NCBI RefSeq assembly: GCF_021129235.1
Contig: NZ_JAJOMA010000021.1
Coordinates: forward strand, 1-64,000
Length of the DNA stretch: 64,000 bases
Source of the DNA: Kineosporia mesophila
GTDB taxonomy: Bacteria > Actinomycetota > Actinomycetes > Actinomycetales > Kineosporiaceae
Reading direction: 5' to 3'
Under the pieces are notes generated by a model. The model was not told the DNA's origin and did not search any database. It was given only the letters and a program-made list of their open reading frames with translations. Shown here piece after piece: positions 5,244 to 25,527 of this stretch. Positions within the stretch are counted from its first letter, which is position 1. Every line of letters begins with the position of its first letter. Both the position numbers and the translations under genes were made by a program.

Positions 5244-6311
5244 TCAGCGGCCGCGTTCCACCGCGTCGAGCACGACGTCGCTGAGCGACTCGCGCCGGGC
5301 GTAAGCCTCCCGCTGCCGTTCCGCGCCGGTACCGCGTTCGAGCACCTGGTGCAGGGCGGTCTCCACCCGGTCCAGATCGCCGTTACGGATCAGGGCGGGC
5401 CGGACCCGGTCGACGAGCTGCTGCACCCGGGTCGGCGCCGGCATCGGTTGGCCGGTCAAGGGATCCACCAGATCACCAGTCAGTCCGAAGCGGGAGGCCC
5501 GCCAGGCCGCGCCCCGCAGCACCTCCGGCCGGGCCGAGGGCCAGGGGCTGTCGGACGCGGCGGAATCGACCAGGCTCCGGCACAGGGCCGCGAGCGCTAC
5601 CGCACTGTCGGGCTCCGTGCCGACGTCGGCCACCCGGATCTCGACCGTGGGGTAGCGCGCGGAGAGCCGGGCGTCGAAGTAGACCATGCCCACGTCGAGG
5701 ATCACCCCGGATCGGATCAGGCTGTCGACCAGGGCCTGGTACTCGTCGGGGTCGTGGAACTCCCCGGTCGGGCCGGAGATGGGCCAGCGGTCCTGGACCT
5801 GGCGCCGGTAACTGGCGTAACCGGTGTCGGTGCCGTGCCAGAAGGGCGAATTGGCGCTGAGGGCGAGCAGTACCGAGAGCCAGGGCTGGATGCCGTTGAT
5901 GACGGCAATGCCCTCGTGCGGTGACCCGATGCCGACGTGCACGTGACATCCGCAGGTCAGCACCTCGGCGGCGGTGGTGCGGTAGTCGGTGACCATGCGC
6001 CGGTACCGCTCGTCCGGGTAGAGGGTCGGTTCGGCGTTCATCGGGCTGGTGCCCAGACCGGCCACCTGGACGCCGTGGTCGGCGGCGAGCCGGCCCAGCC
6101 CGCGTCGGCGGATCTGGAGATCCTCTGCGAGCTGGGCCAGTTCGGTGCGCGGCAGGGAGCCCGTCTCGGCCTGTTCCTGCTGTAGTTCGTGCTCGATGCC
6201 CTCGTGCGCCCCGGCCGTGACCCGTCGGGCGGCCGGGCTCGGAACACCGTTCCCGTCCACCAGGAGGAATTCCTCCTCCACCCCGACCGTGCGCCGTCGG
6301 CTCAGGCTCAT
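5244..6311 (-). CDS. Carboxylate-amine ligase, glutamate-cysteine ligase type 2 (YbdK family)
   Basis: 355 aa, close to the usual family length of about 370. The N-terminus carries VGVEEEFLLVD, the glutamate/ATP-binding signature of GCS2, and the middle has CGCHVHVGI. Members form a gamma-glutamyl-type amide bond using ATP; YbdK itself shows weak glutamate-cysteine ligase activity. In actinobacteria, paralogues serve mycothiol-independent or ergothioneine-related chemistry, so the true substrate is open. It is followed on the same strand from upstream by DUF3072 (20-bp gap), suggesting a shared transcript. Confidence 0.88.
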   Translation of the reverse strand: MSLSRRRTVGVEEEFLLVDGNGVPSPAARRVTAGAHEGIEHELQQEQAETGSLPRTELAQLAEDLQIRRRGLGRLAADHGVQVAGLGTSPMNAEPTLYPDERYRRMVTDYRTTAAEVLTCGCHVHVGIGSPHEGIAVINGIQPWLSVLLALSANSPFWHGTDTGYASYRRQVQDRWPISGPTGEFHDPDEYQALVDSLIRSGVILDVGMVYFDARLSARYPTVEIRVADVGTEPDSAVALAALCRSLVDSAASDSPWPSARPEVLRGAAWRASRFGLTGDLVDPLTGQPMPAPTRVQQLVDRVRPALIRNGDLDRVETALHQVLERGTGAERQREAYARRESLSDVVLDAVERGR

Positions 6312-6330
6312 TGCGCCAGTGTGACGACGA

Positions 6331-6573
6331 TCAGCTCTCCACGCGCGGTGAGCGTTGGCGGTACTCGTCGATCAGCTCGGACGCGTGGGCCTTCGTCAGC
6401 GACTCGGGCAGTTCCTCGTCGACCTCCCGGGCCAGCGTCTGCAGGTAGCTGAGCTGGGCTCCGGTGGCCGGCTCGTCGCCGGTCACCCACTCCTCGGGAG
6501 GCTTGGTGGTGCTCGCCGCCACGGCTTCGTCATCTGCGGCAGCGGCCGGACTGTTCGAAGTGTTCTGGCTCAT
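6331..6573 (-). CDS. DUF3072 domain small protein
   Basis: 80 aa with start ATG at 6573 (MSQNTSN...). The C-terminal half reads ATGAQLSYLQTLAREVDEELP followed by SLTKAHASELIDEYR, the characteristic DUF3072 core: a short helical module common in actinobacteria and some proteobacteria. The N-terminal 30 residues are Ala/Glu-rich and probably disordered. Function is unknown. It lies 19 bp upstream of the YbdK-like ligase on the same strand. Confidence 0.82.
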   Translation of the reverse strand: MSQNTSNSPAAAADDEAVAASTTKPPEEWVTGDEPATGAQLSYLQTLAREVDEELPESLTKAHASELIDEYRQRSPRVES

Positions 6574-6624
6574 GTCCGCAGACACTAGGTAGAACATCCG
6601 TTCGACGCGCGTCGAGAAGGCACC

Positions 6625-7458
6625 TCAGGCGAGGCAGTTGCGCCCTGCTGCACCACTTTTCCCGATCTGTGCCGGATCGATGCCGAGATCCAGGTCCAGG
6701 CCCTCGGACTGCACCTTCACTGCCTCCAGGGTTGTGCCCTCGGGAAGGTCCAGGTTGATGGTGCGCGGTTTGAGCCGGCTCTCGCCGTTCTCGTCGTCCA
6801 GCAGGTCACCGGCCAGCAGGGAGACGAGCCCGATGCCGATCTGACGGCCACCGACGATGACCGATTCGGGTGTCACCGTCAGGCTGTCCCCATCGGCCTC
6901 GATGCTCACCAGGGCCGTCACCGGCTCACCCGCGACCTTCTCGGCCAGGGTCACCGCGAGCAGCCCGTCCTTCGCGGCGAGCGTGGCCCCGGACAGGTCC
7001 GCCTCCGACGCCAGCCGGCCGCCCAGTCCGTCCCAGGGCAGGTGCACCGCGGCCTGCGCCGACTCCACCGAGTGCGGCTTACGGACGCCCAGACCGTCCA
7101 GAGTGACGCTCAGGGTGCCCTTCGGCACCGAGACCGGTTTCTGGGTGTCCAGGCCGGAGACCGCGGTGGTGGACAACCCGCCGATGGTGACCGTCCGGAC
7201 CTCTCCGGAGACCATCCCGAACAGCAACGGGGTGCTGCCCAGCGACACCGTGGGATCGAGGGTGTCGTCGTCGGTGGCGCAGCGCAGAACTCGCACCACC
7301 TGATCCTTCACATAGCGGGTGACCATCACGTTCGCGACGACCACCAGCACGGCGAGCACCACCAGGCAGACGGCCACCACGACGAGCCACCGGCGCCGGA
7401 ACCACCGGGTAACGCTCGGCGTCACGTTCACGCGGGCCTGCAGATTCTCTGTGTGCAC
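6625..7458 (-). CDS. LmeA-like DUF2993 phospholipid-binding protein, membrane-anchored
   Basis: 277 aa from GTG at 7458, preceded by GAGGG; an in-frame ATG at 7473 is an alternative. A basic stretch (FRRRW) and one TM helix (about 20-45) are followed by an extracytoplasmic DUF2993 domain with the typical VSLGSTPLLFG and PEG...KV elements. In mycobacteria LmeA binds phosphatidylinositol species, acts in lipomannan elongation and helps maintain MmpL11. It lies next to what looks like the N-terminal remnant of an MmpL transporter gene. The final residues end in a lone Cys. Confidence 0.8.
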   Translation of the reverse strand: MHTENLQARVNVTPSVTRWFRRRWLVVVAVCLVVLAVLVVVANVMVTRYVKDQVVRVLRCATDDDTLDPTVSLGSTPLLFGMVSGEVRTVTIGGLSTTAVSGLDTQKPVSVPKGTLSVTLDGLGVRKPHSVESAQAAVHLPWDGLGGRLASEADLSGATLAAKDGLLAVTLAEKVAGEPVTALVSIEADGDSLTVTPESVIVGGRQIGIGLVSLLAGDLLDDENGESRLKPRTINLDLPEGTTLEAVKVQSEGLDLDLGIDPAQIGKSGAAGRNCLA

Positions 7459-19743: not shown

Positions 19744-20283
19744 TTAATTTTGGCTTTTTGCGGGCTCTTTCGAGTGGCTGTTCGCCAGCACCAGGACCGC
19801 CACACCGGCCAGGACGAGGATGTCGCCCACGCTGAAGACGTTGGCGAAGGGGAGCCCACTGGGGATGGCGAAGATGTCACCGAGCCAGGGCAGGGTCGGG
19901 TTCTCCAGCATGCCGGAGTTCGAAAAACCCTTGTCAGCAGGCAGTCCTGCCGTTCGGACCGCCCATTCGGAGGCCGGTAGCGTGCCGTGGTTCAGGGCTA
20001 TCGTCACTCCGTTCAGCGCCGCGCCGAGGGCGATCAGGGGTACGCCACGGACCGCGCGGTTCAGCCACAGGAATACCGCAGCCAGTGCGTAGGTCAGCAG
20101 GTGCACCGGAAATCCCAGCCAGGCGGGCACATCCGAGAGCACCGAGAAGAGCAGCACCTGGAGCAGCAGGGCGATCGGCAGCAGGACCCAGCCGCGTACG
20201 GGGATCTCGCCCAGCCGCTGGAAACTGCCGCCGGTCAAGGGAACAGCCAGCACCAGAAGGAGAGCCACGACGCCCACGATCAT
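19744..20283 (-). CDS. DUF5317 integral membrane protein
   Basis: 179 aa with about five hydrophobic helices (roughly 2-15, 30-50, 58-75, 80-95, 150-170). Conserved-looking elements are the LNHGTLPASEWAV loop and the FANVFSVGDILVLAG helix, which fit DUF5317, an actinobacterial membrane family of unknown function. Its ATG overlaps the stop of the GGDEF-EAL gene (ATGA), so it is translationally coupled to it. A GC-rich hairpin (GGCTC...GAGCC, about 19700-19730) after the stop may end transcription. The 19531-19743 stretch otherwise shows nothing recognisable. Confidence 0.8.
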   Translation of the reverse strand: MIVGVVALLLVLAVPLTGGSFQRLGEIPVRGWVLLPIALLLQVLLFSVLSDVPAWLGFPVHLLTYALAAVFLWLNRAVRGVPLIALGAALNGVTIALNHGTLPASEWAVRTAGLPADKGFSNSGMLENPTLPWLGDIFAIPSGLPFANVFSVGDILVLAGVAVLVLANSHSKEPAKSQN

Positions 20284-22436
20284 GCGGGCTTCTCCTCCCG
20301 AGCGTCACGACTCTCGCGGATCGGCAGCGGGGTGGGCGCTCCCAGCCGTTCCACCGTCCCCACGGTCACCGGGCGGGCCCCGGCCAGACCACCGACCACG
20401 TGCTCCCGGCGGTGCGACTCCCAGTCGGTGAGCCAGGCGTCGAACTCGGTGGCGGACAGCGGCGCCTGCACGGTGAATCCCTGGATCACATCACATCCGA
20501 GAACCTGTAGATGGCGCCAGCTCTCGATGTCCTCGACCCCTTCCGCAACTACCCGCAGGCCGAGGTTGTGGCCCAGGTCGATGGTCGACCGGACGATGAT
20601 CTGGTCGTTGTCGTCGCTGGTCATGCCGGTGATGAAGCTGCGGTCGATCTTCAGCTCGTCGACCGAGAGGCGCTTGAGGTAGGCGAGGGACGAATAGCCG
20701 GTGCCGTAGTCGTCGATGGCGATGCGCACCCCGCCGGCCCGCAGCATGGCCAGCACGGCCACGGCCCGGTGCGGGTCGGTCATCACGGTGTTCTCGGTGA
20801 CCTCGAGCGTGAGCAGGGCGGGAGGCACGCAGTAGCGCTTGAGCAGGGAGTCGACCTGCTCGGGCAGGCGCACGTCGGCCAGGTGCCGCACCGAGAGGTT
20901 GACGGCCACGCCCAGGTGCCGGCCCTGGTCCAGCCAGACCCGGGTGCGGCTGATGGCCTGCTCCAGCACGACCAGGGTGAGCTGGGTGATCAGCTCGGTG
21001 GTCTCGGCGATCGGGATGAACTGGTCGGCGCCCAGCAGGCCGCGGTGCGGGTGCTGCCAGCGCACCAGAGCCTCGGCGCCGACCACCCGGCCGGACCGTA
21101 CGTCGCACTTCGGCTGGTAGTAGACGGTGAGCTGGTCGTCGGCCAGGGCGTCGTGCAGCTGCGTGAGCAGTAGCAGGCGCTCGGTGGTGTTCTCGTCCTT
21201 GCTCGGGTCGTAGACGGCCACCCCGCCCCCGTTGCCCTTGGCCAGGTACATCGCGATGTCGGCCTTGGCGAGCAGGTCGGCGCTGCTGCGGGCGTGCTGC
21301 GGGGCCAGGGCGATCCCGATGCTGGCCCGCACCTCCAGCCGGATGCCGGCCACGCTGACCGGGTCGTCGAGGGTGGCCGTGAGCTTCCCGGCCAGGTCAC
21401 TGGCCTCGGTCAGGGGATCGGCGGAGGAGAGGCGGGTGAGCACGGCGAACTCGTCGCCGCCGAGCCGGGCCACCGTCACGTCGTCGGTCATGGCCGAGCG
21501 CAGTCGCCGGCCGATGTCGCAGATCAGGGCGTCGCCGGCTTCGTGGCCGAGGGTGTCGTTGATTTCCTTGAAGTGGTCGAGGTCGATGAACATGACGCCG
21601 AGCACGGGCTCACCGGCCGCCTTCTCGGCGAGCATCCGGTCGAGCTGGAGCAGGAAGAACGAACGGTTGGGCAGACCGGTGAGGGCATCGTGCTGGGCGC
21701 TGTGACGATGCTCCAGGGCCAGCTTGGAGATCTGGTGCACCGCGATGACGGGCATCAGCACCAGCGGCACGAGCCAGAGCGAGAAGTTGGTGACGGCCAG
21801 GCAGATCGGGGCCATCGCCACCATGGGGCCCCAGGTGGTGATGTTCTGGCGCACGTCGATCCACAGGCGGGCACCCTCGATCCGCCGGCTGGCCAGGGCG
21901 ATCACCGTCACGACGAGGCCGTTGTTGACCAGGAAGTAGGCCCCGGAGGCGAGGATAGCCGGGCCCACGTCGTCGCGCTGGAAGTGCTCGGGCACGAAGA
22001 ACGACTGATGGGCGACCAGGCTGAAGATCCAGCGGCCGGCCGCCACGGCCAGCACGTACTGCCCGAGGTTGAACACCGGCCGGGACCAGTGCCGCCCCTG
22101 TTTCAGGTCGTCGATGAGCAGCGGCACGCACTGGGCCAGGATCACCAGACCGAGCGGGGCCGCGAAGATCAGGGCCACGATGAACGTGGTGGAGAGCGTC
22201 ATCAGGTAGGTGCGGCTGTCTTGCAGCACCACCTCGACCGAGGTCAGCTCGCCGATGATCACGCCGAGCAGCAGGAAGATGATCACCAGGCGGTCGACGC
22301 CGAACTGCCGGGGCTGCAACAGCAGCGCCGCCAGCGACCAGACGAGGATGGGTAGAGCCGCCACGATGACCCCGGCGACGAAGAGGCCGAGCGGTGTCAC
22401 CCGTGGGTGCGCCACGCCGGATCCGGTGTCCGTCAT
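20280..22436 (-). CDS. Membrane GGDEF-EAL protein (c-di-GMP metabolism)
   Basis: 718 aa. The N-terminal 220 residues hold about seven TM helices. The GGDEF domain has LGGDEF near residue 327 plus FIDLDHFKEINDTLGHEAGD. The EAL domain has VGAEALVRWQHPHRG near 452, LEVTENTVM and DDYGTGYSSL, so both active sites look intact. It is followed by DUF5317 through an ATGA overlap and preceded by a 33-aa peptide gene, with a strong hairpin in the 80-bp gap. The trio is probably one operon with DUF5317 as a membrane partner. Paralogous in plan, but not near-identical, to the gene at 10081. Confidence 0.92.
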   Translation of the reverse strand: MTDTGSGVAHPRVTPLGLFVAGVIVAALPILVWSLAALLLQPRQFGVDRLVIIFLLLGVIIGELTSVEVVLQDSRTYLMTLSTTFIVALIFAAPLGLVILAQCVPLLIDDLKQGRHWSRPVFNLGQYVLAVAAGRWIFSLVAHQSFFVPEHFQRDDVGPAILASGAYFLVNNGLVVTVIALASRRIEGARLWIDVRQNITTWGPMVAMAPICLAVTNFSLWLVPLVLMPVIAVHQISKLALEHRHSAQHDALTGLPNRSFFLLQLDRMLAEKAAGEPVLGVMFIDLDHFKEINDTLGHEAGDALICDIGRRLRSAMTDDVTVARLGGDEFAVLTRLSSADPLTEASDLAGKLTATLDDPVSVAGIRLEVRASIGIALAPQHARSSADLLAKADIAMYLAKGNGGGVAVYDPSKDENTTERLLLLTQLHDALADDQLTVYYQPKCDVRSGRVVGAEALVRWQHPHRGLLGADQFIPIAETTELITQLTLVVLEQAISRTRVWLDQGRHLGVAVNLSVRHLADVRLPEQVDSLLKRYCVPPALLTLEVTENTVMTDPHRAVAVLAMLRAGGVRIAIDDYGTGYSSLAYLKRLSVDELKIDRSFITGMTSDDNDQIIVRSTIDLGHNLGLRVVAEGVEDIESWRHLQVLGCDVIQGFTVQAPLSATEFDAWLTDWESHRREHVVGGLAGARPVTVGTVERLGAPTPLPIRESRDAREEKPA

Positions 22437-22455
22437 ACCGCCCCTGCTTCCCGTG

Positions 22456-22490
22456 GCGCCTCCCCGGTACTGACCCGACCGGGGAGGCGC
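22456..22490 (-). terminator. Strong hairpin between the 33-aa peptide gene and the GGDEF-EAL gene
   Basis: GCGCCTCCCCGG (22456-22467) pairs perfectly with CCGGGGAGGCGC (22479-22490), a 12-bp stem with an 11-nt loop. No U-tract follows on the minus strand, so it may attenuate or stabilise mRNA rather than terminate fully. It would set unequal expression of the peptide and the enzyme. Confidence 0.5.
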
Positions 22491-22516
22491 GGACGTACGG
22501 ATTCAGCTGACCGCGC

Positions 22517-22618
22517 TCAGCCCCACTTGTCTGAAGCGCCCACCAGCACTGCGAGGGTGACGACGGCCGTTACGACGCCCGCAGCCTTGACATATGCCGT
22601 TGCCTTGAACTCGTTCAT
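22517..22618 (-). CDS. 33-residue hydrophobic peptide upstream of GGDEF-EAL/DUF5317
   Basis: ATG at 22618 is preceded by GAGGAGGG with 5-6 nt spacing, one of the best ribosome binding sites in the window. The peptide begins MNEFKATAYVKAAG, continues with a hydrophobic stretch (VVTAVVTLAVLVGA) able to span or dip into the membrane, and ends in SDKWG. It resembles short membrane-associated peptides but I recognise no named family. It lies 80 bp upstream of the GGDEF-EAL gene on the same strand. The coding call rests on the ribosome site and composition. Confidence 0.6.
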   Translation of the reverse strand: MNEFKATAYVKAAGVVTAVVTLAVLVGASDKWG

Positions 22619-22800
22619 ATGGACCCTCCTCGTACGTGCCCGGAACTCGCCAGGTGACCATCCGCTCTGGCCCGCGGGTCGAAGTCGCGGGAGGTCGGCA
22701 GTGAGCGTTCCCGTCGGCTGTTCCAGCAACCTCGCCCGGGGGCGTGGCTACCTCGACACAGGGATTATGTCCACAATCGTCTACTTTGGGTACTCGCCGG
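22619..22800 (-). other. Long 5' leader region of the peptide/GGDEF-EAL unit, possibly structured
   Basis: About 180 bp between the znu terminator and the peptide start contain complementary segments. CCCGCG/CGCGGG with a 9-nt loop lies about 22673-22693, and CCAG/CTGG flank GCGGATGGTCAC at about 22651-22671. A frame runs through it, but its composition looks non-coding. It does not match the consensus of c-di-GMP-I, c-di-AMP or cobalamin riboswitches as I remember them. Whether it is a regulatory RNA is open. Confidence 0.3.
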
Positions 22801-22839: not shown

Positions 22840-23682
22840 CTAGAACACCCGGCTGCGGCCCCGGGCGGCGGCGATCAGCCGGCAGGCCAGGTAGATCGCG
22901 AAGGAGATGGTGGTGACGTAGGGGCTGATCGGCACACTGCTGCCGAGGGCGAGCAGGATGCCCCCGATCATCGAGACGGTGGCGAACAGGATGCTCAGCA
23001 CGGTCGCGCCGGCGGTGGTGGAGGCCAGACGCACGGCGGCGGCACCCGGGGTGACCACGATGCTCAGCACCAGCAGAGCACCGACGACCTGCACCGACAT
23101 CGCCACGACGAGACCCAGCAGCACCATGAAGAGCAGCGAGAGCGGGCCCAGCGGGATGCCGCGGGCCTGCGCCACCTCGGGGTCGGTGCTGGCGAAGGAG
23201 AGCGGACGCCAGATCAGCAGCATCACCACGACCACGATCACCGAGATCACCGCCAGCCAGGACAGCGCGGGCGTGTCGATGGCCACGATCTGGCCGGTGA
23301 GCAGGCCGAACTTGTTAGCGGCACGGCCCTCGTAGAGCGCCAGGAAGAGCACGCCCAGACCCAGCCCGAACGGCATCAGCACGCCGATCCAGGAGTTGCG
23401 GTCGCGGGCCCGCACACCGAGCAGGCCGATCAGGATCGCGGCGCCGAGCGATCCGACCAGCGACCCGGCCACCACGTTCAGGCCGAGCAGCAGGAATCCC
23501 GAGGCCCCGGCGAACGACAGCTCGCTGATGCCGTGCACGGCGAAGGGCAGGTCGCGCATCACCACGAAGGTGCTGATGAGACCGCCGACGATGCCGAGGA
23601 TCAGACCGGCCAGCAGCGAGTTGTGCACCAGGGGCAGCAGCTCGCTGTAGTCGGTGAAGTTGAAGACCTTGTCCCAGCTCAC
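22840..23682 (-). CDS. znuB: Zinc ABC transporter permease
   Basis: 280 aa with 8-9 TM helices of the ABC-3 (ZnuB/MntB/TroC) family: FVVMRDLPFAVHGISELSFAG near residue 40, the VGALLVLSIVVTPGAAA segment and the acidic/His positions that contact the ATPase. It forms the membrane channel for Zn2+ delivered by the binding protein. Its ATG overlaps the ATPase stop (ATGA). A Zur-type box upstream of the operon favours zinc over manganese. Confidence 0.9.
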   Translation of the reverse strand: MSWDKVFNFTDYSELLPLVHNSLLAGLILGIVGGLISTFVVMRDLPFAVHGISELSFAGASGFLLLGLNVVAGSLVGSLGAAILIGLLGVRARDRNSWIGVLMPFGLGLGVLFLALYEGRAANKFGLLTGQIVAIDTPALSWLAVISVIVVVVMLLIWRPLSFASTDPEVAQARGIPLGPLSLLFMVLLGLVVAMSVQVVGALLVLSIVVTPGAAAVRLASTTAGATVLSILFATVSMIGGILLALGSSVPISPYVTTISFAIYLACRLIAAARGRSRVF

Positions 23683-24557
23683 GATGGGCCTGCGCTTTCA
23701 GGGGCCTCGTCGTGGGGCTCGTCGTGGGGCTCGTCGTGGGGCTCGGAAGACGAATGGTGGACGGGGTGGTCGGGGATCCCGACCACCACCAGTTGCCCGC
23801 GCACCTTGAGGACGTCGACGGGCGAGCCGTACAGCCGGGTCAGGGTCTGCGAGGTCATCACCTCGTCCACCGGGCCGATCGTGAACCGGCCGCCGGCCAG
23901 GTAGAGCACCCGGTCGGCGTAGGGCAGCACCGGGTTGATCTCGTGGGTGACGAAGACGACGCCGGTGTCGTGGTCGCGCCGGCGGCGGTCCACCACGGCA
24001 CACACCTCACGCTGGTGGTGCAGGTCGAGCGAGAGCAGCGGCTCGTCGCAGAGCAGCAGCCGCGGGTCGCAGGCCAGCGCCTGGGCGATCCGCAGCAACT
24101 GCTGCTGACCGCCGGAGAGCCGGGAGGCCGGGGCGTCGGCGAACCGGGTGGCCCCGACCTCGGCGAGGGCGGCGTCGATGCGTTCGCGCCGCTGCCGGCG
24201 GCTCAGTACGGGCAGACCCCACTGGTGCCCGTCGTACCCGTAACCGACCAGGTCACGGGCCCGTACCGGGGTCAGGGGATCAAAGCGGCGCTGCTGCGGC
24301 ACGTAGCCGACCTCGCGCCGGGCGGCGGTCGGTGACTTGCCGAGCACGCTGATCGTGCCGGCCGACAGCGGCTGCATCCCGAGCAGGCAGCGCAGCAGGG
24401 TGGTCTTGCCGGAACCGTTCGCGCCGAGCACGGCGACGAACTCGCCGGGCCGGACGGTCAGGTCCAGGGCTTCCCAGAGTGGCTCGCCCGCGTCGAACCC
24501 GAGTGCGGCGCCGCTCAGGCGCACGAGCTGTGCGCCGTCCTCAATGTCACTCATCAA
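23679..24557 (-). CDS. znuC: Zinc ABC transporter ATPase with His/Asp-rich C-terminal tail
   Basis: 292 aa. Walker A GANGSGKTT, Q-loop YVPQQRRFDP, signature LSGGQQQ, Walker B LLLCDEP, and the H-loop in FVTHEIN are all present, so it should energise zinc import. The last 25 residues carry a threefold EPHD repeat after HPVHHSSS, a metal-binding-looking extension not needed for ATPase activity. At DNA level this is three perfect 12-bp repeats. The gene follows znuA by 7 bp and overlaps znuB. Confidence 0.9.
   Translation of the reverse strand: MMSDIEDGAQLVRLSGAALGFDAGEPLWEALDLTVRPGEFVAVLGANGSGKTTLLRCLLGMQPLSAGTISVLGKSPTAARREVGYVPQQRRFDPLTPVRARDLVGYGYDGHQWGLPVLSRRQRRERIDAALAEVGATRFADAPASRLSGGQQQLLRIAQALACDPRLLLCDEPLLSLDLHHQREVCAVVDRRRRDHDTGVVFVTHEINPVLPYADRVLYLAGGRFTIGPVDEVMTSQTLTRLYGSPVDVLKVRGQLVVVGIPDHPVHHSSSEPHDEPHDEPHDEAPESAGPS
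23706..23741. repeat. Three perfect 12-bp tandem repeats in the znuC 3' end
   Basis: The unit CTCGTCGTGGGG is repeated three times without change and encodes the acidic/His EPHD tail on the minus strand. Such units can vary in number by slippage without breaking frame. Confidence 0.8.
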
Positions 24558-24564
24558 ACCCTCA

Positions 24565-25527
24565 TCATCCGAGCGCTGAGGTTACCGCCTCGACGTTCGC
24601 CGTCATCCAGCCCACGTAGTCCTCCCCCTCGGGCAGGGTCTCGGTCACGCCGACCGTCGGGACACCGTCGGTCTTGGCCTGGGCCAACAGCTTCTCGGTC
24701 TCCGCGCTGGTGGTCTGCTCGTTGTAGACGAACGCCTTGACCTCACCGCCGGAGAAGATCTTCAGGGTCTCGTCGAGCACCTTGATCGGGATGTCGTTGC
24801 CCTCCTCGACCGCCTCGCTGAAGGCCTCGGGAGTCTTGTTCACCAGGCCGATGTGCTCGAGCAGGTAGAGCGGCACCGGCTCGGTGATGGCCACGCCCTG
24901 CCCGTCGTACTTGGTCTTGGCGTCGTCCTCGAGCTTGATCACGGCGTCGAGCTGGGTGTTGAAGGCCTTGGCGTTGGCCGTGAACGTGGCGGCCTGGTCG
25001 GGCCGGGCCTGGCCCAGGTCGGCCGCGATCCGGTCAGCGACCTTCTGGACGCTCTCCAGGTCGTACCAGACGTGCTCGTTGAACTCGCCGTGCGCGTGCT
25101 CGTCCTGCGTGCCCGTGGTCTCCTCCGCGCTCTCCAGACCGGAGACCTCGACCGCGTTGATCACCGGGGCGTCGCTCTTGGCCGCCTCGATCAGCTGGTC
25201 CATGAAGTCGTCGTAGTGCCCGCCGTTCTCGATCACCAGGTCGGCCTTCGAGACGGCCAGCTGGGTACGGGTGTCGGCCTCGAACGAGTGCGGGTCCTGC
25301 GAGGCGCTGCTGATGATCGAGGTCACCTTCACCGCGTCCCCGCCGACCTGGGCCGCGATGTCGCCGTACACATTGGTCACCGCCACCACGTTGAGCGCGT
25401 CCTGCGACGAGGCGGTGCCCCCGCTGGACGACCCGCCACCACAGGCGGTCAGCCCGAGTACACACATGCCCGCCGTGCCCAGGGCGAGTGCCCGTCCGCG
25501 CTTGTGCCCAACGTTCCACGCCATCAC
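24565..25527 (-). CDS. znuA: Zinc-binding lipoprotein of the znu importer
   Basis: 320 aa from GTG at 25527 (GGAAGGA 7 nt upstream; ATG three bases on is an alternative). Lipobox LGLTACGG predicts a lipidated surface protein. The cluster A-I fold is evident: NVYGDIAAQVGG, zinc-ligand His in SQDPHSFE, a mobile His/Asp/Glu loop (DEHAHGEFNEH), the second His in EHVWYDL and a late Glu/Asp ligand region. It captures Zn2+ for ZnuBC. A Zur-like palindrome precedes it. Confidence 0.92.
   Translation of the reverse strand: MMAWNVGHKRGRALALGTAGMCVLGLTACGGGSSSGGTASSQDALNVVAVTNVYGDIAAQVGGDAVKVTSIISSASQDPHSFEADTRTQLAVSKADLVIENGGHYDDFMDQLIEAAKSDAPVINAVEVSGLESAEETTGTQDEHAHGEFNEHVWYDLESVQKVADRIAADLGQARPDQAATFTANAKAFNTQLDAVIKLEDDAKTKYDGQGVAITEPVPLYLLEHIGLVNKTPEAFSEAVEEGNDIPIKVLDETLKIFSGGEVKAFVYNEQTTSAETEKLLAQAKTDGVPTVGVTETLPEGEDYVGWMTANVEAVTSALG

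Follow-up and report, generated by a model that had tools for sequence, protein, structure and literature searches.

A micropeptide family with a conserved C-terminal tail encoded beside MASE9-like c-di-GMP enzymes and DUF5317 membrane proteins

To our knowledge, the input signal is unknown for most enzymes of cyclic di-GMP (c-di-GMP) turnover, and a locus of the actinobacterium Kineosporia mesophila may point to an input encoded by the genome itself in the form of a very short peptide. In the 64,000 nucleotides (nt) analysed here (contig NZ_JAJOMA010000021.1, positions 1 to 64,000; hereafter the window), a gene for a peptide of 33 amino acids (aa) is followed by genes for a GGDEF-EAL enzyme with an N-terminal membrane domain and for a membrane protein of the DUF5317 family. 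Relatives of the peptide, conserved at the C-terminus, are encoded upstream of many genes that carry a membrane domain of the same kind, whose predicted model has the fold of energy-coupling factor (ECF) S-components. It is proposed, with what we judge to be an even chance of being right, that the three genes make up one membrane module, in which the peptide serves through its tail as the encoded ligand or a subunit of an S-component-fold receptor that sets c-di-GMP turnover. As read from the open reading frames (ORFs) of the window, the genes lie on the minus strand in the transcription order peptide, GGDEF-EAL, DUF5317, with the following features (L and G numbers below denote loci and genomes, respectively).

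22619..22790, minus strand: 5' leader of the peptide gene, in which CATAAT at 22764-22769 resembles a promoter element; mean column identity of 75% among six Kineosporia sequences.
22625..22630, minus strand: Shine-Dalgarno sequence AGGAGG, 6 nt 5' of the peptide ATG; kept in 6/6 Kineosporia sequences.
22517..22618, minus strand: micropeptide of the GAxx(K/R)W family (MNEFKATAYVKAAGVVTAVVTLAVLVGASDKWG), 33 aa, ATG start, ending ASDKWG; conserved, with mostly low ratios of nonsynonymous to synonymous differences (pN/pS) and homologues in many families.
22456..22490, minus strand: perfect hairpin between the peptide and enzyme genes, 13 bp with a 9-nt loop (arms 22456-22468/22478-22490); probably incidental.
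20280..22436, minus strand: MASE9-like-GGDEF-EAL protein, 718 aa; Pfam EAL 247 bits, GGDEF 145 bits.
21702..22436, minus strand: N-terminal MASE9-like domain of that protein with seven transmembrane helices, residues 1-245; ECF S-component fold in the predicted model.
19744..20283, minus strand: DUF5317 protein, 179 aa; 101.3 bits against a gathering cut-off of 25 (PF17248); five predicted long helices.

An earlier note, made from the sequence of the window, had described a hydrophobic peptide with a strong ribosome site and an SDKWG end, preceding a GGDEF-EAL gene that itself overlaps DUF5317, and this description is borne out by the ribosome site, C-terminus, coordinates and Pfam scores listed above and by a 4-nt overlap of the two larger genes. 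The enzyme is predicted to carry the catalytic motifs of both of its output domains, as GGDEF, EALVRW and DDYGTGYSS, the catalytic motifs of GGDEF/EAL enzymes, can all be read in its translation. For the peptide, comparison of sequences shows that the ORF is kept as a real gene, beyond what chance would leave. In each of the five genomes drawn from the genus, the peptide lies 5' of the same enzyme and DUF5317 genes, and among the six sequences pN/pS of the ORF is 0.00-0.31 in 12 of 15 pairs, the three remaining pairs, all involving L010, having values of 0.45, 0.58 and 1.01. Moreover, homologues of the peptide precede the same genes in further families and classes. Searches of Pfam and NCBIfam returned no match to the 33-aa peptide at E <= 1, and a profile of the peptide finds two places in the source genome at E <= 1e-5, namely the window and a second DUF5317 gene.

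The peptide belongs to a large family without a Pfam or NCBIfam match, whose members are 20-37 aa long and share a basic start, a hydrophobic core and a C-terminal GAxx(K/R)W. When 15 enzyme loci from other genera and families of the same order were scanned, 13 had an upstream ORF that encodes 30-37 aa, including a hydrophobic stretch, and ends in GAxxK(W/F). For the remaining two, the scan of L058 covered another copy, and L054 lacks such an ORF altogether. In a first alignment of 26 peptides, G27, A28 and K31 are invariant, which describes the set and is no test of it, as the alignment was built from motif-bearing members. A search rule that left free the two positions preceding xx(K/R)W gave 104 unique peptides, with G in 94 of them at the first and A/S/G in all 104 at the second of these positions, and conservation is concentrated at the C-terminal tail.

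The linkage of this family to MASE9-like-domain genes was counted under a strict rule, by which a motif-bearing micro-ORF must end no more than 450 nt upstream and only genes with at least 350 nt of upstream DNA are included (five with less were dropped). Such a micro-ORF is found upstream of 99 of 158 distinct domain genes and at 98 of 10,283 random positions (1.0%); an earlier set gave 97/139 versus 85/8,346, and in a small control none of four GGDEF frames without the domain had one. By type, the genes with a peptide are 79 of 97 for GGDEF with DUF5317 in the locus, 2 of 4 for GGDEF without it, 14 of 38 for HD-GYP and 4 of 19 for others or cut genes, and more than one motif ORF lies upstream of 11 genes. 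Most of the loci were fetched via DUF5317, and the rate for MASE9 at large should be nearer to that of the 30 loci picked by the Pfam MASE9 model alone, 13 of which have a strict-motif ORF and five more a variant (L259, L260, L264, L266 and L286); at another locus of this set, L268, which was read as L172, the ORF has no recognisable ribosome site.

The position of the motif, which gives an independent test, leads to the same genes. Among 29,587 stop-terminated frames of at least 22 aa in the loci, 133 have a hydrophobic stretch followed by the terminal motif, and 115 of the 133 have the enzyme's membrane domain or DUF5317 no more than 500 nt downstream. The 18 frames elsewhere comprise 13 peptide copies from a single genus, spread over three genomes (the L145 array accounts for six, and two copies in L153 reach the contig end), two that follow DUF5317 in metagenome-assembled genomes (MAGs) of Chloroflexi (L240, L250) and three that stand apart (L092, L169, L172). 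Loss of the peptide where the enzyme and DUF5317 are kept had been named in the earlier note as grounds for giving up the unit, and the 79 of 97 such GGDEF genes given above argue for retention: among the 18 misses, eight are extra copies in Demequina arrays, seven have a peptide that fails the rule or sits further upstream (L244, L180, L087, L174, L238, L254, L302), two have the peptide after DUF5317 (L240, L250), and one has none (L054).

The peptide is also found with enzymes of another output. Of 14 HD-GYP frames near DUF5317 in other classes of the phylum, eight share the N-terminal membrane domain of the GGDEF-EAL proteins, several of the remaining six being truncated where the sequence read ends. 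Related peptides precede several HD-GYP genes with a MASE9-like domain, including one in an Armatimonadota MAG (L253), and peptide and enzyme occur without DUF5317 in the locus at L149, L150 and seven HD-GYP loci (L277, L288-L292, L303). Because related peptides also precede HD-GYP enzymes with this domain, some of them in genomes without a DUF5317 match, the shared partner is the N-terminal membrane domain, not the GGDEF-EAL output. The suggestion of a membrane signalling unit in the earlier note is thereby kept in part: the three-gene unit is real, and what the peptide shares it with is the membrane domain more than one type of output; nor do the three genes always travel together, as DUF5317 pairs with a peptide in the absence of the enzyme at four loci described below and HD-GYP loci without DUF5317 exist. 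The tail differs with the partner. In cases meeting the strict rule, its base is Lys in 87 of 87 GGDEF-linked peptides and Arg in 16 of 19 HD-GYP-linked ones, a split to which shared ancestry could give rise.

Thirty GGDEF loci of the source genome were read, and the domain is encoded at two of them and the peptide at one of the two; the 7.8-Mb genome contains 77 GGDEF matches in total, a large c-di-GMP repertoire. In genomes without a DUF5317 match, some MASE9-HD-GYP genes are preceded by micropeptide genes of 20-23 aa that have strong ribosome sites and come as near-identical pairs in tandem (L280, 1151-1339; L261, 1163-1345; L263; L277). In the Demequina arrays (L058, L199, L212, L216), MASE9-like-GGDEF-EAL genes stand in series, and one peptide gene and one DUF5317 gene were found.

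The enzyme's N-terminal membrane domain appears to be related to MASE9, given that the Pfam MASE9 model (PF20972) matches 39 of 46 aligned N-terminal domains, the best at 6.1e-16. The predicted model of the domain, with a mean predicted local distance difference test score (pLDDT) of 90.6, has the ECF S-component fold: the best 21 rows in VIA-align are all ECF S-component chains, with Z from 13.8 down to 7.5, and the next row has a Z of 5.4. The top row, 4m5b, is a transition metal transporter, which we take to be NikM2 (Z 13.8, 188 residues, 3.9 Å), and further matches include the CbiMQO chain 5x3x_M and RibU, both with Z 11.8, so that the matches span S-components for metals, riboflavin, folate, thiamin and biotin. 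Foldseek alone is weak for this domain, with a best E of 0.033.

According to the main text of PMC11109136, which treats the PF07694 5TMR receptors and does not contain the term MASE, the 5TMR receptors are linked to the S-component fold without having the AxxxA docking motif, and some of them are fused to GGDEF and EAL; the AxxxA of S-component helix 1 serves in docking to EcfT (PMC11109136, main text). The MASE9-like domain resembles ECF S-components and 5TMR receptors in its predicted fold, and differs from S-components in being fused to c-di-GMP enzymes and in lacking an AxxxA column pair conserved over the first helices: no column pair there has A-xxx-A in 15 or more of 46 rows, with the equivalent of S-component helix 1 left unfixed, and AxxxA occurs somewhere in residues 15-40 in 24 of the 46.

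The third gene follows the peptide closely in the order, where the peptide is present at E <= 1e-5 in 30 of 33 DUF5317-positive versus 0 of 264 DUF5317-negative genomes, the latter count depending on the threshold, as in the DUF5317-negative G007 a domain-bearing GGDEF gene is preceded by a peptide at E 2.8e-4. Each of the 12 peptide-positive genomes of the class also matches DUF5317, and over two listings 49 of 78 MASE9-positive genomes are DUF5317-positive as well. MASE9 and DUF5317 both match the same two of 14 control genomes (Thermus composti and Thermotoga maritima), whereas GGDEF matches eight. The genes may be rearranged and still linked, with peptide and enzyme divergent from DUF5317 in L166, L174, L203, L229 and L087. 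The second DUF5317 gene of four Kineosporia genomes (L046-L049) has a peptide of its own, ending GAGHKWW, with no adjoining c-di-GMP enzyme. At three other DUF5317 loci (L063, L076, L081), adjoining short hydrophobic ORFs have tails of AAPF type, AAPKYKGG or GAPYDHGG, and are perhaps very distant members of the family.

The DUF5317 model has a pLDDT of 93.6. Seven residues (N75, G87, N91, N98, P103, G153 and D154) are invariant in 73 sequences, and four of them, N98, P103, G153 and D154, fall within or next to the segment joining the last two helices. A search of the Protein Data Bank with Foldseek gave three rows at E <= 10, the best with E 5.8, which is no proof of a new fold, and VIA-align gave no full-length match, with a best Z of 5.7 over 49 residues. 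An intramembrane protease of the GxGD type was considered, as prompted by the invariant SxGD, and rejected: Lys replaces the second conserved Asp (D136) in 6 of 91 DUF5317 sequences, and as far as the secondary structure of the model shows, D136 belongs to a strand and D154 to the opening turn of the last helix, rather than the two facing each other within two membrane helices.

When the positive-inside rule is applied by eye to the models, a common arrangement of the three proteins may be drawn. With seven helices and the enzyme inside, the beta hairpin of the MASE9-like domain (residues 66-80) and the near-invariant E63 would lie on the outer face; the DUF5317 stretch between the last two helices would likewise be outside; and the peptide, with an N-terminus more basic than its tail, would place the tail outside. 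The peptide is taken as a ligand because the tail is its conserved end, would lie on the ligand side of the S-component fold and has a base that follows the partner. In the proposed mechanism, the MASE9-like domain would be a receptor with an outward-facing ligand pocket, fused to the domains that make and break c-di-GMP. The basic N-terminus of the peptide would stay inside while its hydrophobic stretch enters the membrane, and the GAxx(K/R)W tail would emerge on the outer face and occupy or gate the pocket, thereby altering the output of GGDEF versus EAL, or of HD-GYP. DUF5317 would be an accessory membrane protein, the conserved outer part of which may meet the tail and present, hold or process it. 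A bolder version, judged less likely than not, is a widespread peptide first-messenger system feeding directly into c-di-GMP, in which the xx(K/R)W tail of a 20-37-residue precursor, displayed or set free outside the cell, sits in a cavity like a vitamin pocket, DUF5317 acts as dedicated presenter or processor, and Lys tails serve mostly GGDEF-EAL and Arg tails HD-GYP enzymes.

In the proposed mechanism the tail may act tethered or cut free; a rather unlikely rival of it is a released pheromone. The peptide would then be a minimal signal peptide, from which signal peptidase, cutting behind the invariant small residue, would free a short xx(K/R)Wx tail; the same cell or its neighbours would perceive this tail through the MASE9-like receptor, and cell density would be converted into c-di-GMP. 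All 104 unique peptides have A/S/G immediately before the would-be cut and 82 have A, V, S, T or G at -3, many HD-GYP-linked precursors comprise 20-26 aa, begin with basic residues and carry AGA or GGA ahead of the tail, and the 20-aa forms would seem too short for a membrane span, all of which suit a released tail. The same is true of the peptide gene standing beside that of a putative membrane receptor, and of the genes preceded by more than one motif ORF together with the partnerless L145 array, which fit a secreted signal dependent on dosage. However, Pro directly after a cut site blocks signal peptidase I, and Pro follows GA directly in 9 of the 104, one of them from Kineosporia (L010). 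In 78 of the 104 the uncharged run extends over 19 residues, as expected for a membrane-spanning helix, and it favours an anchored tail, as does the Pro. Moreover, an N-terminal KW is common in the Demequina and Cellulomonas forms as well, which a discarded leader need not keep, and no exporter or protease gene was identified.

The same 19-residue run would also suit a structural subunit, i.e., a single-pass helix, constitutively present, whose part would be to stabilise or assemble the receptor and DUF5317 and not to carry a signal. Many members have Trp and Lys near both ends, and the peptide is associated with two different membrane proteins, as such a helix might be. We consider this improbable, as the best conserved part of the peptide is the tail motif beyond the helix, 20-aa forms exist, and the L145 array has no partner genes.

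Several observations weigh against the proposed receptor module. By the strict rule, 59 of 158 domain genes have no peptide, 24 of 38 HD-GYP-type genes included, although at some of the 59 the rule misses variants judged by eye. No peptide was found at the source genome's second MASE9-like-GGDEF-EAL gene (L337), at three HD-GYP loci of one family (L293, L294, L304) or at the eight extra copies in the Demequina arrays; G008 (L054) keeps the enzyme and DUF5317 without a peptide, and a Nonomuraea MASE9-like-GGDEF-EAL gene (L353) has neither peptide nor DUF5317 in the 9.8 kb read. In the class, 81 of 93 DUF5317-positive genomes are without a peptide at E <= 1e-5, and therefore DUF5317 also exists apart from it. 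Conversely, peptide genes occur apart from their partners: in the L145 array (6096-7354, genome G354), peptide genes stand in three pairs arranged in tandem, additional copies lie on other contigs (L146, L147), and no MASE9-like domain, GGDEF, EAL, HD-GYP or DUF5317 was found in the 14 kb of L145. The division of tails is not strict either, with Arg-Trp tails at the GGDEF-EAL loci L240, L250 and L302, which fall outside the Lys/Arg count. As to the receptor, the window's own domain aligns with the 46 and yet has no PF20972 match at E <= 0.1, middling Z values are common among helical bundles in VIA-align, and a shared fold alone shows no function.

The region between the peptide and enzyme genes bears on a further explanation, in which the ORF is a regulatory leader, acting as an upstream cistron or an arrest peptide on the translation of the gene that follows, with no separate role for its product. 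The peptide is usually the first ORF found before the enzyme, and in the window it is followed by the perfect hairpin that the earlier note had put at 12 bp; the hairpin is there, with 13 bp and an RNA fold z of -2.4 in the window, and is not kept across the genus. Of four relatives folded, L011 and L013 have it and L009 and L010 do not, which rules it out as a conserved element; because it is present in only two of the four, the hairpin is a local feature outside the conserved unit and probably incidental. With the hairpin not conserved, the distance to the next gene variable, near-identical tandem copies, copies downstream of DUF5317 in the Chloroflexi MAGs (L240, L250) and L145 copies with no partner genes in view, a regulatory leader is very improbable. 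A riboswitch was also considered on the 5' leader: Rfam gave no match at the gathering score in four relatives, the rows for the window were far below that score, and a consensus fold of six leaders has a two-sided change in 2 of 40 pairs.

In the surroundings of the module, a ZnuA-type ATP-binding cassette transporter (ABC-3 permease, ATPase and binding protein; 22840-25527) lies upstream of the peptide on the same strand, in an order kept in all five Kineosporia relatives read. A tie to a flagellar module was considered and found not to be strict, FlhA (PF00771) being present in 18 of 30 peptide-positive versus 18 of 50 other genomes, in a test of 80 of the order's 297 genomes in which the 50 include G007 with its peptide at E 2.8e-4. 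A plasmid search with DUF5317 from L161 found no copies, and one with the enzyme returned at least 5000 records, all below 60% identity, three of them covering at least 80% of the query; the first is from Nonomuraea (L353).

Tiny proteins that serve one large membrane sensor or S-component are already known, for instance MgrB, which acts on PhoQ, and CbiN, partner of the S-component CbiM, and the arrangement of the peptide with its putative MASE9-like receptor resembles them, a likeness drawn by description only. The streptococcal SHP and ComS peptides are very short, with a basic start, a hydrophobic character and a C-terminal active part, and their genes lie beside those of their receptors. 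Their very short size, basic start, hydrophobicity and receptor-adjacent gene are found in the present peptide as well, again by description, whereas their receptors are the cytosolic regulators Rgg and ComR and the partner here would be a membrane c-di-GMP enzyme. MASE9 itself is a sensor domain of c-di-GMP enzymes with the same fusion to GGDEF-EAL or HD-GYP; what is added here is a putative encoded peptide partner, none having been found described for MASE9 in the literature searched, where the sole match was unrelated, judged by its title. The same searches found no paper naming DUF5317, and among the matches listed for small membrane proteins and micropeptides, MASE and HD-GYP, S-components, pheromones, and Kineosporia with c-di-GMP, no description of such a peptide or module appeared. 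Peptides serving membrane sensors are thus of a known kind, and one dedicated to a c-di-GMP receptor of predicted S-component fold would be new as far as these searches show.

If the proposed receptor module holds, the genome itself seems to name the ligand, as a short encoded peptide with an almost invariant tail stands beside a defined receptor domain, and the signal input of a whole class of sensors becomes directly testable with synthetic peptides. DUF5317 gains its first context through the linkage to micropeptide and MASE9-like genes described here, as the third gene of the locus is a member of that family (PF17248). In addition, a micropeptide family comes into view whose members are short enough for gene callers to miss, and the published link between receptors and the S-component fold would be extended to a c-di-GMP sensor domain.

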